A stretch of 64,000 nt of DNA from NCBI GenBank assembly GCA_031315865.1, contig JALDRJ010000002.1, positions 3,322,001-3,386,000 on the forward strand. Reading direction: 5' to 3'. The first letter of the stretch is position 1, and each line of letters begins with the position of its first letter. The stretch comes from Nitrospirales bacterium. Its GTDB lineage: Bacteria; Nitrospirota; Nitrospiria; Nitrospirales; UBA8639. Below, in pieces: positions 3,130 through 11,649 of this stretch. The notes below the pieces were generated by a model. That model saw only the letters and a list, made by a program, of their open reading frames with translations. It had not been told where the DNA came from and did no database searches. The translations under genes and the position numbers were made by a program.

Positions 3130-5229
3130 TTAGGATGAAACGGCGACGAATTCTTTCTTGTGTTCTTCGATGATTTTATGCGTTTGCTCTTTCGGCACTT
3201 CTTCATAGCCTGAAAATTCCATCACATAACTGCCTTTCCCAGCCGTCATCGAAGTCAGGGCCGGCGCGTATTTAAGGATTTCTGCCAGAGGAATCAAGGC
3301 TTTGACGATCTGATGATGACCTTTCGTCGACATCCCTTGTATGCGCCCTCGTCTTGCATTCAAATCGCCAATGATGGTTCCGACCATGTCATCAGGTACA
3401 GTCACTTCCACATGCATAATCGGTTCAAGCAAGGTGGGCTGTGCCAGTTCCATGGCCTTTTTGAATCCCATGGACCCTGCGACCTTAAACGCCATTTCGG
3501 ATGAGTCGACGGGGTGATGCGACCCATCATAGACCGTCACCCGAAGATCCACAGCCGGAAATCCTGCGATCGTTCCATGAAGCATGGATTCCATCACGCC
3601 TTTTTCAACAGCAGGAATAAAGTTTCTCGGTATCACGCCCCCGACGATCTTATTCACAAATTCAAACCCTGTTCCGCGTGGGAGCGGATCGAGCTGAAGC
3701 CAGCAGTCGCCGTACTGACCATGCCCTCCCGTTTGCTTTTTGTATTTCCCCTGCGCTTGCGCCGGCCGTTGAATCGTTTCTTTGTAAGGAATTTTTGGCG
3801 TATGGAGATTCACCTCGACCCCATACTTTCGCTTTAACTTCTCCAGCGTGACGTCGATATGGGTTTGTCCGACTCCACTCAGGAGCATTTCTTTCGTTTC
3901 ATCATTCCGTAAAAACTCTAATGAAGGATCTTCTTCCACGAGTTTATGCAGCCCGACACTGACTTTGTCGATATCATTCTTGCTCTTGGGTTCAAGTGCG
4001 TACGACATGACCGGACGCACGAACTGCGGAGAGTCGAACTCAATCTGATGTTTTTCTTCAGCCAGCGTATCACCTGTTTGGGTGTCCTTGAGCTTTCCGA
4101 TGGCCGCGATATCCCCCGCTGATACTTTCTTGGTGGCCGTAAATTTTTTCCCGAGCGCGTAAAAAAGATGCCCGCCTTTTTCTTTGATCCGTTGAGTGAC
4201 GTTAAAAAAACCGGAATCGGCCTGCAACACCCCTGACTGGACTCGAATATATGTCAGACGACCCATAAACGGATCGATCGTCGTTTTAAATACCTTTCCT
4301 GAAAACGGTTCACTGTCCTGCACCTCTCGCGTGAGAGGCTCTCCAGTAAGAGGATCTTTTCCGTTGATGGGATGAACATGTGCCCAATCAGCTGGAGACG
4401 GCAGGTAGGTATGAACGGCATCCAACAACAAGGATGTCCCGATATTGTGAAGTGCCGAACCGCACAGAACAGGAATCAGTTTCCCTTCCAGCGTGCCAAA
4501 CGTCACCCCTTCAAGCATCTCCTCGGCAGTCAGCTCGCCATCAGTCAGGTACTTCTCTAAAAACTGATCATTCATCTCGGCAGCCCGCTCGATCACCTGC
4601 TTGCGCAGTTCTTCAGCTGGAGGTTGCAGCTCCAGGGGAATTTCATGTTGTTGCCATTTAGGAGAACTCGTATCGGACGTGATGGCAACCGATTGGATCA
4701 CATCGATGACCCCTGAAAGCTGTTGTTGCTGACGGAGAGGCATGGTGAGAGCGACTCCGTTGAGTTCCAGGGTTTGGCAGCATTCCTGAAAGGTTCTCGA
4801 GAAGTCCGCATGCTCTTTATCCAATCCATTGATAAAGAGGAGGCATGGCAACGACCGCTCTCGGATGTAATCCCAGGCTTTTTCGAGCTCGCTCTTTATG
4901 CCATCTCCGGCATCGACCACCAGGATGACACCATCGACAGCTAGCAAACATGACTTGACGTCGCTAAAAAAATCTAAAGAACCTGGCGTGTCAATAAAAT
5001 TGATCCTCGTTCCTTTCCACTCAAGTTGAAGAAGTGAAGAACTCACGGAATGATGACGATGAATTTCTTCGAGTTCAAAGTCTGAAATGGTGTTTCCTTT
5101 GCTGGTCGTGCCCATTGAGTCGACCGCTCGCGTGGTAAAGGCAAGCGCTTCACTCAAAATTGTTGTACCTGAACCAGGGGCAGAGACCAAGGCGACGTTA
5201 CGGAGGGCGGGTTGGCTAACATCGTTCAT
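3130..5229 (-). CDS. EF-G-like protein with altered GTPase motifs
   Basis: The 699-residue protein follows the EF-G domain plan (GTP-binding domain, domains II to V) and matches the EF-G-like branch often called FusA2. The start at 5229 is set by AGGAGG seven bases upstream; a longer reading to 5268 lacks this. The GTPase motifs are unusual. The P-loop reads SAPGSGTT near residues 16-23, with Thr where the GKT lysine belongs. DTPGH reads DTPGS, so the catalytic His is missing. NKxD reads NGLD. The C-terminal half is well conserved (KKQTGGHGQYGD, AFKVAGSMGFKKAM). Binding or hydrolysis of GTP may be lost. Its cellular role is not known. Confidence 0.85.
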   Translation of the reverse strand: MNDVSQPALRNVALVSAPGSGTTILSEALAFTTRAVDSMGTTSKGNTISDFELEEIHRHHSVSSSLLQLEWKGTRINFIDTPGSLDFFSDVKSCLLAVDGVILVVDAGDGIKSELEKAWDYIRERSLPCLLFINGLDKEHADFSRTFQECCQTLELNGVALTMPLRQQQQLSGVIDVIQSVAITSDTSSPKWQQHEIPLELQPPAEELRKQVIERAAEMNDQFLEKYLTDGELTAEEMLEGVTFGTLEGKLIPVLCGSALHNIGTSLLLDAVHTYLPSPADWAHVHPINGKDPLTGEPLTREVQDSEPFSGKVFKTTIDPFMGRLTYIRVQSGVLQADSGFFNVTQRIKEKGGHLFYALGKKFTATKKVSAGDIAAIGKLKDTQTGDTLAEEKHQIEFDSPQFVRPVMSYALEPKSKNDIDKVSVGLHKLVEEDPSLEFLRNDETKEMLLSGVGQTHIDVTLEKLKRKYGVEVNLHTPKIPYKETIQRPAQAQGKYKKQTGGHGQYGDCWLQLDPLPRGTGFEFVNKIVGGVIPRNFIPAVEKGVMESMLHGTIAGFPAVDLRVTVYDGSHHPVDSSEMAFKVAGSMGFKKAMELAQPTLLEPIMHVEVTVPDDMVGTIIGDLNARRGRIQGMSTKGHHQIVKALIPLAEILKYAPALTSMTAGKGSYVMEFSGYEEVPKEQTHKIIEEHKKEFVAVSS

Positions 5230-5705
5230 AATGAAGCCTCCTAATGTGGTTTCGTAAATTCTAGGCATCCGTTTTCAGGGAGTCAATGGACAGACCACAG
5301 AAAGCTGTCAAATACCACAACGCTTATGTTTGAACGTTGTCATGATTTCGACGAATCAGAATGTCAGGACCATGACATGTCGGCATTATTTTGGAGACAG
5401 ACCTCTGATTCACTGGGATAACTGCCAACTTCAAAGGGAGTATGACATGGACAGGGAAAAATCGGACATGGCATAGAGGTTGCTCTACTCCCGAACATCG
5501 CCTCAATTCTTCTTTCATTCCCTCTTAAGAAAACTGAGGCGAGTCAAGGCAAGCTCTACGAAGGCTTGCTGAGTATCCTGATTCACCGAATAACAACTCG
5601 TTCCTGATTCATGGCAGTCAACACTGCCGGTGGATGGGTTTTGTCAAAAACGCAAGTAGAAATAGCTAGTAAATTTTACAAACACTGAATGCATGAGGTG
5701 CGGCG
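5230..5705. other. Intergenic region without a recognised gene
   Basis: The 476 bases separate divergent genes. I see no convincing reading frame or RNA gene. Two short inverted repeats occur: CGCCTCA at 5499-5505 with TGAGGCG at 5535-5541, and GCAAGC at 5549-5554 with GCTTGC at 5564-5569. Promoters for both flanking genes should lie here, but no good consensus was found. Confidence 0.5.
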
Positions 5706-8033
5706 ATGAATTCCACGATTTCTCAACAGGCGTCTGAATCTCTTTCTCTCGTCAGCGGTGCAGCGAATCATCAGGCTTCCTATCTCAGGGTAAGCAAATC
5801 GGTAGAGAAATACCGATTGAACTGCGCGATCTCACTTCATGGGTCCGGTGCGAATTGGAAAGGAACGACTCATGAGTTCACCCGCTCAACCATGACAATC
5901 ATCATCGAGGGTTGTCCATTAGTCGTGGTCTCACAATCTCTCAAGCTCTGTTTCGATTCACCCCAATCACGTTTTGAAATTCAAGGATGCGTTCAACACG
6001 TCACTCCTATTGGTCATGACACTCAAGGTCGTTGGTCTCGCGTCAAACTCGATGTAGTGATTGAGGGCTTGGATGACCTGAAATGGCAACGTGTCAAGGC
6101 GTTCCTCAGAGGCATCGCGTCATCCTCTTCCCGTTCTTCGCTACAAGGCACCCTGGTTCCGTTGGACTCCGGAGATAACCTTTGGAATATAAAGTCGGTC
6201 CGGCTTTCAGATACTGATTCCTGTCAGGATTCCTCGCGCGCTCCCATTGCACGCGTCATTGAACCGCTGACGCAGAGTTTTCAAGCAGGCAGTCCGGAGA
6301 GCACGTCCTCAAACATATCTGTCGTGAGTACCGAGGTGATGTTTCCAAGCCAAGATGGACGAATGATTCGGGCGTATCATGATACTCCATCTATCGCCGT
6401 GTCTTCTGACAGCCCCGTGATCATTCTTTCTCCTGGTTACGGCGAAACCAAACGTGAGTACATCATGCTGTCGTACTACTTTGCGGTCAATGGATTTCAT
6501 GTTCTTCGGTATGATCACAGCAATCATGTGGGATCCAGTGATGGCGACCATCTGTACACGACACTGTCGACGATGCGAGAAGATCTTGTCGCCGTGCTGA
6601 ACTACGCCGCCTCACGGTGGCCTCTGAGCGCAAAAGGACTCGTCGCCACGAGCCTGAGCGCCCGAGTCGCGATCAAAACCCTCGCACACGAAGCCAAAGT
6701 GGATTTGTTATGTCTGCTGACGCCCATCGTTGACGTTCGCAGCACGCTTCAGTCCGTACATCAGGAAGATTTGATCGCGGCGTATTATCAACGACGACAC
6801 AAGGGGGTGACCAATGTGCTGGGATTTAATGTTGAACTGGATGATTGGCTGGCGGATGCTGTTACTGGTCAGTTTTCTGACCTGGAAACAACGTCTGATG
6901 ACATCGGCAAGATTCAAGCTCCGGTCGTGATCGTGAGTGCCGAACATGATGCATGGGTGGATTTGGGAAGTACCACAGCCGTGGTAGAAGGGTTGGGCGA
7001 ACACTTACAACAATGGACAGTCATTCCTCGCGGTCTGCATCGTGTGCTGGAAAACCCCAAACGCGCCAAGGCTGTCTATCGTGAGCTGATTCATTGTGCA
7101 CGACATACCTTGCTAGGAAAAGCAGGCAGGTCTGACGTCCAGGAACCGGTCAGGAAAGCCATCGGCTGTCAGAACAAGATTGAACGGGAGCAGAAGAAAG
7201 CGACGCAACCATCGCTCGAATTATCAGGGTTTTGGAAAGACTACCTGGATCACTTTCATTACATCGTCAATTTTTCGGATTACCAACAATTACTGGACCA
7301 CATGTTTCAACTACTCGGTCCCGTACAATCTGGAGATCGCATCTTAGATGCCGGCTGTGGAAATGGAAATTTCGGATCACTCATGCTTCATAAACAACAC
7401 GCAGCCTCACGCGCACCTCGCCAGGGTCAAGTGGACGACTTCCAATACGTAGGGATCGACTTCGTTCCGACCGCGTTAGCGCATGCACAACATCAATACC
7501 ACGCGACCTACAATACTTATTTTTCAGGACGTACATCAGACGGTTCAGAAAATGCTTCGGCGTTCCATTGTGTCGATCTCAATCAACCGCTCCCATTCAA
7601 AGATGGTTCATTCGATAAGGTTGTCTCGAATCTTGTTTTAGGGTATTTAGACAATCCTGCTGCCACCATCCAAGAACTGATGAGGGTTCTGGCCCCTGGG
7701 GGAACGCTTGTCTTATCCAATCTTAAACCCAACTCAGATCTATCGCGAATTTTCATGAATTTCGTAGGAGAAACATCTAAGACTGAAGAAGTCGAAGAAG
7801 CCAAACAATTGTTAAACAATTCTGGAAAAATTCGGGAAGCGGAAGGCGAAGGATTGTTTCATTTTCCTGACAGTGATGAATTAGAAGAACTCTTTCTCAC
7901 GGCCGGCAAGTCCGGCAAACTCAACATCTACAGCACATTCGCGAATCAAGCCTATATCGTAGAATTCCGCAAAGCAATGGCGCATGAAGGGCAATCTGAC
8001 ATTTCGTATAGTGAAGCCTTACGAGCGGCCTGA
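5706..8033 (+). CDS. Fusion protein: PilZ-like region, LuxD-like acyl hydrolase, SAM methyltransferase
   Basis: This 775-residue protein has three parts. Residues about 30-140 resemble a PilZ beta-barrel, but the RxxxR and (D/N)xSxxG motifs are not clear. Residues about 205-460 form an alpha/beta hydrolase closely resembling LuxD, the acyl-ACP thioesterase/transferase of bacterial bioluminescence: NGFHVLRYDHSNHVG and LVATSLSAR match LuxD landmarks, giving a likely triad of Ser316, Asp415 (EHDAW) and His445 (GLHRVLEN). Residues about 500-760 are a class I methyltransferase with motif I ILDAGCGNGNFG (546-557), LPFKDGSFDKVVSN and LAPGGTLVLSNL. No signal peptide is seen, so it should be cytoplasmic. 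Substrates are unknown; acyl-ester hydrolysis or transfer plus methylation is inferred. A membrane histidine kinase follows on the same strand. Confidence 0.8.
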   Translation: MNSTISQQASESLSLVSGAANHQASYLRVSKSVEKYRLNCAISLHGSGANWKGTTHEFTRSTMTIIIEGCPLVVVSQSLKLCFDSPQSRFEIQGCVQHVTPIGHDTQGRWSRVKLDVVIEGLDDLKWQRVKAFLRGIASSSSRSSLQGTLVPLDSGDNLWNIKSVRLSDTDSCQDSSRAPIARVIEPLTQSFQAGSPESTSSNISVVSTEVMFPSQDGRMIRAYHDTPSIAVSSDSPVIILSPGYGETKREYIMLSYYFAVNGFHVLRYDHSNHVGSSDGDHLYTTLSTMREDLVAVLNYAASRWPLSAKGLVATSLSARVAIKTLAHEAKVDLLCLLTPIVDVRSTLQSVHQEDLIAAYYQRRHKGVTNVLGFNVELDDWLADAVTGQFSDLETTSDDIGKIQAPVVIVSAEHDAWVDLGSTTAVVEGLGEHLQQWTVIPRGLHRVLENPKRAKAVYRELIHCARHTLLGKAGRSDVQEPVRKAIGCQNKIEREQKKATQPSLELSGFWKDYLDHFHYIVNFSDYQQLLDHMFQLLGPVQSGDRILDAGCGNGNFGSLMLHKQHAASRAPRQGQVDDFQYVGIDFVPTALAHAQHQYHATYNTYFSGRTSDGSENASAFHCVDLNQPLPFKDGSFDKVVSNLVLGYLDNPAATIQELMRVLAPGGTLVLSNLKPNSDLSRIFMNFVGETSKTEEVEEAKQLLNNSGKIREAEGEGLFHFPDSDELEELFLTAGKSGKLNIYSTFANQAYIVEFRKAMAHEGQSDISYSEALRAA

Positions 8034-8461: not shown

Positions 8462-10615
8462 ATGAACTTTTATGCCTTTAGTGGCTTGATTAATGGTTTC
8501 ATCAGTTCGGGGCTCGGACTATTCATTTTTTCTCGAGCCCCCAAAAACGCCAAACATCAAACGTATGGGCTGTATTGCTTAAGCTTGTCTATTTGGAGTT
8601 ACGCCTACTACTTTTGGCATATCCAGAATGACCCCGATTCCGCATTATTTCTTACCCGCGCCTTGATGGCCGGCGCCATCCTCATTCCGATTACACACAT
8701 TCAACATGTGGTGACATTGCTCGGCATTCAACAGCGTCATCGCGTGCTCCTCTGGTTTGGATATGTCCTGACGGGAGGCTTCCTCCTGAGTGATATGACG
8801 ACCCTTTTCGTTTCAGAGGTCAAGCCTATCGCAGAATTTCCGTATTGGCCTGTTCCCGGCCCAGCCTTTTCTTTGTACCTGGCTTGGTTTATTTTTTCCA
8901 TTGGGTATGCAGCCTATCTGTTCGGGAGCGAATATCGGAAGGCCACAGGCATTCGGCGAACCCAGTATTTGTACCTCTTGGTGGGTTCACTCGCCGGTTA
9001 TCTTGGGGGGGCGACGAACTTTCCGTTGTGGTACGGGGTGCCAATCATGCCCTATGGCACGATCCTCGTCAGCCTCTATGTCGTGGCGGTTGCGTACACG
9101 CTGGTTCGCTACCGGATGTTGGATTTTTCAATTGCCGTCGAACGAAGCCTCACATTCTTATTCTTACTGGTTGCGCTCTCCATTCCCGCCCTAGGCGTCT
9201 TACTCTATCTCGAGCAGATTTATTTAGGGCAGGTGAACATTCAGTTCACCGTTCTACTCTTGTTGGTGGCCTCCATCTTAGTCGCGTTAGCGTACCGGAT
9301 GATGGAAGGCATGCAGGCTGCCGTCTCGAAAGCGCTCTTTCGGGAACGACATGACATGTACCAAGCGCTGTCGACGTTCTCAAAATCCCTCGTCACGAAT
9401 TTAAAACTGAAGCCGCTCGCACACGAGATTGTCCACATGCTCGGGCAAGTCATGGGCATTCAGCATGTCGTGTTATTTATCTTGGACAAGGAGCGAAAAG
9501 AATATGCCCCGATTTCTCAATTCGGGTTAACGACTGACATTGAGCAGATCCCGAAACCGACGCTCAACGATCCCCTGCCCAGGCACCTCACTGCCTCTCA
9601 ATCACTCATTATTCGTGATGAGCTTGAAGATACGGCTGATTCCTCATCGATCCTGAGCAGCCTCAAGGCTACGATGGAATCCATGGGGATTGATCTGTGC
9701 CTACCCTTGATCAACAAACGACGTCTTCTGGGGTTTTGCGTCCTTGGCCCTAAAACCTCGACGGCTGCATTTACCTCGTTGGATATTGATCTCTTGACGA
9801 CCTTATCGCATGAAGCGGCGATCGCCATCGATAATGCCATGCTCTACGAGGAGCTCAAGAGATCCCAAGCTCTGGTTCGACGAACGGATCGTTTACGAAG
9901 CTTGGAAACCATGGCGGGAGGGCTAGCGCATGAAATTCGAAATCCCCTGACATCGATTAAAGCATTCGTGGATCTCGTCCCCGAACGAGCGACCGATGAG
10001 TCGTTTTTATTACGGTTTGGACAAGTCGTCAAAGATGACGTCTTGAGGATTGAACGCTTGACGAAGGAAATTTTGGACTACGCACGTCCGGCAGAACCGT
10101 TCTTGAAACTCGAAGACGTGAATGAGATCGTCGAATCGTGTTTGTATGCTCTCCGGATTAGGGCATCGCATCAAATCGTAGTGATTGAGACTGATTTGGC
10201 CAACGGCCTGCCGGCGGTCTACGTCGATCGACAACAACTCAAACAAGTCTTCCTGAATCTATTTTTAAATGCGACTGAATCGATGGCTGAGAAAGGGGGA
10301 ACGCTGACCGTTCGAAGTTCTGCCATCCTTCAGCAAAACGGAGACCGCAGGGTCAGAGTCGAGGTTCGCGATACGGGAGGAGGGATCGCTCAGGAAGATC
10401 TTGAGCATATTTTTGACCCCTTTTTCACGACCAAGCACCATAGCGAGGAACATGAAGGCACAGGATTAGGCCTCGCGATCGCCCATCAGATCATCCAGGA
10501 ACATAAGGGGCATGTCGAAGTCAAAAGCGAGTTGGGAAAAGGGGCCATCTTTATCGTCGACTTGCCGGCGCAGAACCGCTCATCACCATTGCTTGAGGAT
10601 GTGTTGTCTGTGTGA
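8462..10615 (+). CDS. Membrane sensor histidine kinase with GAF domain
   Basis: The 717-residue protein has an N-terminal block of about nine hydrophobic spans (residues 1-290), a GAF-like domain (about 310-460), then HisKA and HATPase domains. The phospho-acceptor His490 sits in LAHEIRNPLTS. ATP-binding boxes are clear: N-box NLFLNATESM, DTGGGIA (from residue 637), FDPFFTTK and GTGLGLAIA. A GAGAGGA-like ribosome site precedes the start. The layout resembles PrsK, the kinase of PEP-CTERM/exosortase systems, but no exosortase or response regulator lies next to it. The signal sensed is unknown. It may be co-regulated with the upstream fusion protein, although a hairpin lies between them. Confidence 0.9.
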   Translation: MNFYAFSGLINGFISSGLGLFIFSRAPKNAKHQTYGLYCLSLSIWSYAYYFWHIQNDPDSALFLTRALMAGAILIPITHIQHVVTLLGIQQRHRVLLWFGYVLTGGFLLSDMTTLFVSEVKPIAEFPYWPVPGPAFSLYLAWFIFSIGYAAYLFGSEYRKATGIRRTQYLYLLVGSLAGYLGGATNFPLWYGVPIMPYGTILVSLYVVAVAYTLVRYRMLDFSIAVERSLTFLFLLVALSIPALGVLLYLEQIYLGQVNIQFTVLLLLVASILVALAYRMMEGMQAAVSKALFRERHDMYQALSTFSKSLVTNLKLKPLAHEIVHMLGQVMGIQHVVLFILDKERKEYAPISQFGLTTDIEQIPKPTLNDPLPRHLTASQSLIIRDELEDTADSSSILSSLKATMESMGIDLCLPLINKRRLLGFCVLGPKTSTAAFTSLDIDLLTTLSHEAAIAIDNAMLYEELKRSQALVRRTDRLRSLETMAGGLAHEIRNPLTSIKAFVDLVPERATDESFLLRFGQVVKDDVLRIERLTKEILDYARPAEPFLKLEDVNEIVESCLYALRIRASHQIVVIETDLANGLPAVYVDRQQLKQVFLNLFLNATESMAEKGGTLTVRSSAILQQNGDRRVRVEVRDTGGGIAQEDLEHIFDPFFTTKHHSEEHEGTGLGLAIAHQIIQEHKGHVEVKSELGKGAIFIVDLPAQNRSSPLLEDVLSV

Positions 10616-10650: not shown

Positions 10651-11649
10651 TTATAGTGATCCCTGGATTAACCTACCCTCCCAATCTCCTGTGCCTTTTT
10701 TGAGTTTGACCATTCCCTGTTTTCGGTATCCAGCTTTCTTCAGCCAAGCTTGAACGTCCGTGGCCTGGTACGTATTGCCGGATTCGGTGAACAATAACAT
10801 GGTCACGGCAAAAAGATTGGATTCGGCAGGCCGGCTGCCGGCACGATCCACTAAAAAGGTGTCTTGAATCAAAAGACGGCCGCCAGGATTGAGATGGGGG
10901 CGCAGGCGTCTGAATAATTTGAGATTCTCCGCTGCAGAATAAATATGAATGACATTCGACAACCACATGACGTCATATTTCCTCTGAATCGGATCCATCA
11001 AAAAATCCCCGGCCATATACGATACTCGCGCATGAGATCGACGAGTTTGAGCAATTTCCCTGGCCACATCCAAGGCCTCAGGCCGATCAAAGATCGTGGC
11101 GCGCAGTGAGGGATTCTTATCCAGGAATTCCAGCGCATAGGTCCCTGGCCCTCCCCCGACATCTAAGAGAGATGTTGCGGTTTTCAGGTTCAGCTGTCCG
11201 GCCACCTGCCGGGCGACGTCCAATGATCGTTCATGCATGGCCCAGCTAAAACTCCGGCGATACTCAGGCGTCCCAGGCCCTTGGGGCTCGATCGGTTTTC
11301 CAGTTTTAACAGCCTGCGTCAGGCTCGCCCAATCGCTCCATTGTCGTTGGATCAAATCGAGATACGCGCCACGATAATCTTCGCTGTGTCGATTGAGAAG
11401 GCGTCGGGCAAACGGACTATTTTGATAGCGGGCCCCATCCTTGCGAAGGAGTCCGGCGCTCAGCAAATTCCGGCAGAGTATGTCGAGGCCGCGTTGACTC
11501 ACCCGTAAGGTCTTGGCCAAAGCGCGAATCGTCCACTTCTGACCGTTCATGACGGTGAAGAGTTCAAGCTCAAGGGCCGTCAAAAGAATGCGAGGCAATC
11601 GAAACTGAAAAACGGCCTCACGAAAATCTCCAAATTTGTGAATACTCAT
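10651..11649 (-). CDS. O-methyltransferase of the plant COMT/CrtF-like family
   Basis: The 332-residue protein has a winged-helix dimerisation domain at the N terminus (about residues 10-100, LRVSQRGLDILCRNLLSAGLL) and a Rossmann methyltransferase domain with motif I LLDVGGGPGTYAL, then LSNVIHIYSAAEN and LNPGGRLLIQD. This layout is typical of SAM-dependent O-methyltransferases acting on aromatic or polyketide hydroxyls, and of hydroxyneurosporene methyltransferase. A GAGGGGG ribosome site lies just upstream of the start. It faces the histidine kinase gene, with ends 35 bases apart. The substrate cannot be read from the sequence. Confidence 0.85.
   Translation of the reverse strand: MSIHKFGDFREAVFQFRLPRILLTALELELFTVMNGQKWTIRALAKTLRVSQRGLDILCRNLLSAGLLRKDGARYQNSPFARRLLNRHSEDYRGAYLDLIQRQWSDWASLTQAVKTGKPIEPQGPGTPEYRRSFSWAMHERSLDVARQVAGQLNLKTATSLLDVGGGPGTYALEFLDKNPSLRATIFDRPEALDVAREIAQTRRSHARVSYMAGDFLMDPIQRKYDVMWLSNVIHIYSAAENLKLFRRLRPHLNPGGRLLIQDTFLVDRAGSRPAESNLFAVTMLLFTESGNTYQATDVQAWLKKAGYRKQGMVKLKKGTGDWEGRLIQGSL

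Follow-up and report, generated by a model that had tools for sequence, protein, structure and literature searches.

LuxD releases acyl chains from ACP. The DSF system is built from an acyl synthase (RpfF), a sensor kinase (RpfC) and a REC-HD phosphodiesterase linked to c-di-GMP (RpfG). BioHC carries a hydrolase followed by a methyltransferase in one chain, and PrsK, the histidine kinase of the PEP-CTERM system, has a membrane-GAF-HisKA layout. In Ralstonia, the methyltransferase PhcB makes 3-hydroxy fatty acid methyl esters, which the kinase PhcS is believed to sense, as described in the accessible part of PMC6989110. Communication among nitrite oxidisers such as Nitrospira marina is open, because no LuxI/LuxR homologs are reported for that organism in the accessible part of PMC8115632. 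Within the accessible portions of the open-access literature, some of the term sets that we searched returned no paper, and others known quorum-sensing papers.

We analysed a window of 64,000 nucleotides from a Nitrospirales bacterium with a genome of 3.78 Mb, focusing on a fusion gene and the histidine kinase gene downstream of it. Compared by description, the pair resembles PhcB/PhcS in its gene order, a methyltransferase gene immediately followed by one for a sensor kinase, and in its putative fatty-acyl chemistry; the accessible part of PMC6989110 describes PhcB as a methyltransferase and mentions no LuxD part, whereas the fusion has one. PhcB/PhcS is the closest known logic to the fusion-kinase pair. 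The Rpf system follows the same three-component logic, but its synthase has a crotonase fold and the present system has a sigma-54 regulator. The layout of PrsK resembles that of the window kinase, although the kinase scored 131.5 bits on the PrsK model TIGR02916, below its cut-off of 300.

An earlier note, made from the letters of the window alone, had claimed a three-part fusion in one chain. The open reading frame, the Pfam matches and a PilZ profile comparison all bear this out (Table 1).

Table 1. Positions in the window of the fusion gene, its kinase partner and their predicted parts.
Feature	Position	Strand	Evidence or remark
PilZ-like / LuxD-like / methyltransferase fusion, 775 aa	5706..8033	+	single ORF, ATG to stop
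PilZ domain, degenerate and without c-di-GMP motifs, residues about 36-155	5811..6170	+	hhalign, motif scan, identity
LuxD-type alpha/beta hydrolase, residues about 206-472	6321..7121	+	PF02273, PDB profile, fold Z 30.2 to 1tht
Predicted nucleophile Ser316 codon	6651..6653	+	triad alignment
Triad Asp415 codon	6948..6950	+	triad alignment
Triad His445 codon	7038..7040	+	triad alignment
Class I SAM methyltransferase, residues about 505-757, motif I LDAGCGNGN intact	7218..7976	+	Pfam, fold
7TM-GAF-HisKA-HATPase histidine kinase, conserved downstream partner	8462..10615	+	Pfam, neighbourhood, membrane segments
7TM sensor region of kinase, residues about 1-284	8462..9313	+	part lost alongside pseudoenzyme form

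The central hydrolase matched the Pfam family Acyl_transf_2 (the LuxD family, PF02273) at 80.9 bits (cut-off 20.3) over residues 216-422, and the fusion protein is the only PF02273 match in the genome. A profile of 18 LuxD-methyltransferase cores gave 57 PDB hits, led by LuxD (myristoyl-ACP thioesterase / acyltransferase, 1tht) at 129.6 bits; a MHETase followed at 51.7 bits, and monoglyceride lipases scored 24-30 bits. For the predicted fold, modelled from 31 aligned sequences with a mean pLDDT of 81.6, 1tht was again the top match, both in Foldseek (E 3.3e-16) and in VIA (Z 30.2 over 284 residues, rmsd 2.9; next match at Z 28.2). We conclude that no solved structure comes closer than LuxD in either sequence or fold and that lipases rank behind it; the same rankings ruled out a lysophospholipase or monoglyceride lipase identity. 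The domain is therefore LuxD-like and does not group with ordinary lipases, as the earlier note had proposed.

Besides the fold, the family and the triad, the fusion hydrolase shares with LuxD an ASLSAR-like nucleophile segment and an RYD..HVG landmark. The triad residues lie in the contexts GLVATSLSARV (Ser316), VSAEHDAWVDL (Asp415) and IPRGLHRVLEN (His445); their numbering in the note was exact, and the LuxD-type landmarks that it had reported are present. Its remark that no lux reductase gene is near extends to the whole genome, in which LuxC (PF05893) has no match. Unlike LuxD, then, the protein comes from a genome without LuxC, carries methyltransferase and PilZ parts, and scored 79.7 bits on the NCBIfam LuxD equivalog model, which has a cut-off of 420.

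In the C-terminal domain, Pfam models Methyltransf_11, Methyltransf_23 and Methyltransf_31 matched residues 529-734. The fold matches of the model were tied at the top and do not distinguish between C-, O-, N- and S-methylation. Carboxyl methylation of a released acyl group would be the simplest guess, and a fatty-acid methyl ester is a plausible guess for the product.

The N-terminal region gave no PilZ match in Pfam with the window protein. A profile of this region from 11 members of the window's family, compared by hhalign with the PilZ domains of relatives, gave a probability of 98.2% (E 3e-14), so the label "PilZ-like" was right. Scanning for the c-di-GMP motifs RxxxR and [DN]xSxxG found them absent in the window protein and in all 11 family members, and mean pairwise identity within the family is 25% in this domain against 49.5% and 48.6% in the other two. 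In many relatives outside the family, however, RxxxR..[DN]x[ST]xxG precedes the LuxD domain. Of the two options offered earlier, a link to c-di-GMP or a worn-out copy, the second describes the window's family, while the canonical motifs are kept in many relatives.

Homologs of the fusion (E 1e-10 or better, own genome included) are present in 31 of 59 near relatives and in 68 of 295 genomes across the phylum. We can exclude a chance arrangement, because relatives with a core identity of 34-67% keep the same domain order and the triad. A single-sequence scan of genome contigs with the window protein alone found no relative, and a plasmid search gave partial methyltransferase matches only, with none of 51 records reaching 80% coverage. 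The search for the same order in other genomes, which the note had suggested, found it with the LuxD and methyltransferase parts within one chain. Three separate genes were seen in none of the close relatives; the one part found as a separate ORF is the REC-PAS-PilZ part in L084. The L082 fusion ORF lacks the LuxD domain. L079 is a fragment of 403 aa whose start is overlapped by a 271-aa ORF, a split that is probably a frameshift. In-frame stops had been flagged in the f18 relatives, and the one in L069 proved to be the true gene end, with the kinase ORF starting 4 bases on.

Proteins of the window's family are about 750-800 aa long, like the window protein, and lack REC. Relatives at the order level have the forms PilZ-PilZ-LuxD-MTase (about 930 aa), REC-PAS-PilZ-PilZ-LuxD-MTase (about 1100 aa) and REC-PAS-...-PilZ-PilZ-LuxD-MTase (about 1400 aa). 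A distant member of the phylum has one canonical PilZ domain with the LuxD and methyltransferase parts in 672 aa, and an Opitutaceae contig encodes LuxD-MTase alone in 571 aa.

Across 61 fusion ORFs we scored the active site and the neighbours. A Ser-Asp-His triad is present in 33 of them; another three (L074-L076) have an aligned Ser and Asp with a His beside a gap, and we counted these as intact, for a total of 36. It reads Asn-Asp-His in 3/61. In 19/61, all 1196-1439 aa long, the triad is lost, the Ser position being Asp in 18 and Gly in one. The remaining three ORFs, fragments or without LuxD, fell outside the triad scoring. Methyltransferase motif I is also altered, to varying degree, in the 19 triad-less ORFs, which form one clade inside the intact members (support 91/73; 92% of 200 bootstrap trees).

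A histidine kinase gene lies directly next on the same strand in 53 of the 61 cases. The exceptions are accounted for as follows: a PilZ-ketosynthase III (KASIII) gene stands between fusion and kinase in L043 and L082; L084 is a split REC part; the ORFs of L044 and L051 end at contig ends; the kinase of L049 is soluble and was missed in ORF picking; in L036 a kinase belonging to this group lies on another contig (L234); and L083 has no kinase nearby. The pair also occurs on two Verrucomicrobia contigs, with a stop/start overlap of 4 bases in Opitutaceae. In G321 (L086:7383-12308, +), a single ORF of 1641 aa reads PilZ-PilZ-LuxD-MTase-7TM-GAF-HisKA-HATPase, with enzyme and sensor fused. Elsewhere in the neighbourhood, the window's family has an EF-G-like GTPase gene (window 3130-5268, minus strand) divergent from the fusion, and a gene for an O-methyltransferase with a dimerisation domain (window 10651-11649, minus strand) is convergent to the kinase, a position kept across that family.

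Other kinases of about 1000 aa (L039:11342-14350 among them) have 10-14 predicted membrane segments. The 7TM region of the window kinase is matched twice in them, once by the first 250 residues and again by the stretch that follows, so their sensor region is duplicated. The window's genome encodes a second 7TM protein outside the window (L225:7573-9816, minus strand, G000:C2), in which Pfam matched HisKA_7TM and neither a HisKA nor a HATPase model; it is possibly a receptor whose kinase part was lost. A HAD hydrolase gene lies upstream of it and a PAS-HisKA-HATPase-REC hybrid kinase gene after it, an order found in 7 loci.

The state of the enzyme and that of the kinase changed together. An adjacent kinase was found for 35 of the 36 intact-triad ORFs, all 35 with at least two membrane segments predicted by a simple hydropathy scan, which undercounts some; the full-length kinases beside intact enzymes have 3-14, and 2 of the 35 are cut at contig ends. 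Seventeen of the 19 triad-less ORFs have an adjacent kinase with no or one predicted segment, and the other two are L049 and L083. These soluble kinases align to the portion of the window kinase after the membrane region and form one clade among the 7TM operon kinases (100/99), matching the single pseudoenzyme clade. Among 59 genomes, all 22 that encode an intact enzyme have the 7TM domain, as against none of the 7 with the triad-less form only, 1 of the 2 with the Ser-to-Asn form only, and 2 of the 28 that lack the enzyme. The last two belong to the window's genus; one has a paralog only, and the other a kinase of 81% identity at a contig end. Fisher's test on 22/0 against 0/7 gives 6e-7, a value that is overstated, as the counts are not independent and come down to one event per tree. 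We conclude that each tree records the joint loss as one evolutionary event. Since catalysis and receptor region were lost together and the pair was kept across phyla, the pattern is the one expected of a synthase-receptor pair.

A second acyl enzyme can take the place before the 7TM kinase. Four genomes have a PilZ-ketosynthase III gene there: G045 (L043), G184 (L082), G175 (L135) and G222 (L134). A ketosynthase match was obtained in 57 of the 295 phylum genomes searched, and of these matches only the ones in G184, G175 and G222 extended over the PilZ part. All four proteins keep what we take, from motifs, to be the ketosynthase III positions Cys, His and Asn. An intact LuxD domain is found next to none of them: in L043 the Ser is Asn, in L082 the domain is missing, and in L134 and L135 no fusion is adjacent. 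This rule of KASIII in place of LuxD covers four genomes, one of which (L134) starts near a contig end. The f5 and f9 kinases, which follow LuxD-MTase, and the f6 and f10 kinases, which follow the ketosynthase, have common kinase parts and a REC-kinase neighbour. Judged from its domains, the protein encoded in L043 (7158-8756, minus strand) is a possible c-di-GMP-controlled condensing enzyme. Genes of acyl metabolism also lie upstream of some fusions, namely acyl-CoA dehydrogenase in L074 (by Pfam), L075 (by homology) and L076, FadL also in L076, and KASII in L077.

Four findings together suggest that the LuxD-methyltransferase and its kinase are an undescribed fatty-acid-based signalling system: the identity of the domains, predicted active sites that are intact, conservation of the gene pair, and the joint loss. 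We infer, at a probability of roughly 45%, that the fusion makes a methylated fatty-acyl signal that would be sensed by the 7TM kinase in the manner of PhcB/PhcS. Ser316 of the LuxD domain would accept the acyl chain of an acyl-ACP (or acyl-CoA) and then release it, and the fused methyltransferase with SAM would methylate the released group, most simply at the carboxyl. The lipophilic product could then be sensed within the membrane by the 7TM region, and phosphate would pass from the kinase to a sigma-54 (NtrC-type) regulator. In many order-level relatives a gene for such a regulator adjoins the kinase, together with a REC-HD phosphodiesterase gene; both follow the kinase in the pseudoenzyme group and in a few others, and the 25 sigma-54-type matches in the window's genome are candidates for the cognate regulator there. 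PilZ would tie the loading step to c-di-GMP in relatives, an input that would be worn out in the window's family. We favour signalling over plain ester formation because of the conserved 7TM kinase, the ketosynthase replacement and the pseudoenzyme clade, all of which the earlier note had missed. Against it, 7TM kinase paralogs occur away from any LuxD fusion, no exporter was identified, and the window genes are not tightly coupled, being 428 bases apart where other groups have tens of bases or an overlap.

The presence of REC on the enzyme in several order-level relatives also speaks against a signal, since it fits an enzyme acting as the kinase's output. Such an enzyme, under the control of the kinase (through REC where present) and of c-di-GMP, could release and methylate acyl chains and in this way remodel lipids of the envelope or membrane, with no extracellular signal. 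REC-PAS does stand ahead of the enzyme in the f2 relatives, in L082 and in the split L084, many relatives have PilZ domains with c-di-GMP motifs, and REC-HD proteins are encoded within the same gene cluster. However, the window's family has no REC, and where the catalytic residues are gone, the kinase, the sigma-54 regulator and the phosphodiesterase persist while the 7TM input is lost. Were the enzyme only an output, its loss would give no reason to expect a kinase stripped of its membrane part in an otherwise intact relay. We consider this role unlikely.

The 7TM kinase might alternatively read lipid order or chain composition, with the enzyme as a feedback effector on fatty-acid pools. In three loci (L229:7065-11891, L230 and L235) a 7TM kinase paralog adjoins a haem-oxygenase-like/TENA protein, here an oxidase, with a fatty acid desaturase on the other flank (typed in L229), which makes these loci another fatty-acid neighbourhood for this kinase type; FadL and acyl-CoA dehydrogenase lie upstream in f5. 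Desaturases occur at a minority of loci only, though, and a sensor of membrane state leaves the fused methyltransferase, the KASIII swap and the cross-phylum pairing unexplained, so we regard it as quite improbable.

A reversible device like BioH-BioC, in which the methyltransferase adds a methyl ester and the hydrolase removes it from the same substrate, has in its favour a domain order that is also that of BioHC. The BioC model scored 49-51 bits on the methyltransferase domain (50.7 in one scan), but its cut-off is 184.95, and none of its 26 matches in the window's genome lies above that. The hydrolase is LuxD-like, none of the 57 PDB hits is a chain named BioH, no biotin genes were recognised beside the fusion, and the neighbours are signalling genes; we hold this device to be very improbable. 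Least probable of all are ordinary esterase and methyltransferase domains without joint function in a passively inherited neighbourhood, for although the wider neighbourhood (the EF-G-like and other genes) is kept within the window's family, the kinase pair persists where all other neighbours differ, including in another phylum and as a single-chain fusion.

Returning to the signalling reading, we can extend it to a lipid quorum-sensing family in Nitrospirota and Verrucomicrobiota, in which an acyl synthase (LuxD-methyltransferase or PilZ-ketosynthase III) would feed a 7TM receptor kinase. In a large Nitrospirales clade, the synthase would have evolved into a regulatory pseudoenzyme that carries REC, PAS and two PilZ domains, its kinase would have shed the receptor region, and an extracellular circuit would have turned into an internal c-di-GMP/phosphorelay hub. 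Taken as a whole, this scenario is somewhat unlikely, and we offer it tentatively. The pseudoenzyme clade would then show a route from signal synthase to regulator. Intact, swapped and dead enzymes form a natural series on which the idea of a synthase and its receptor can be tested directly, and the locus provides one named gene pair in which a fatty-acyl signal can be sought in a globally important group of nitrite oxidisers.
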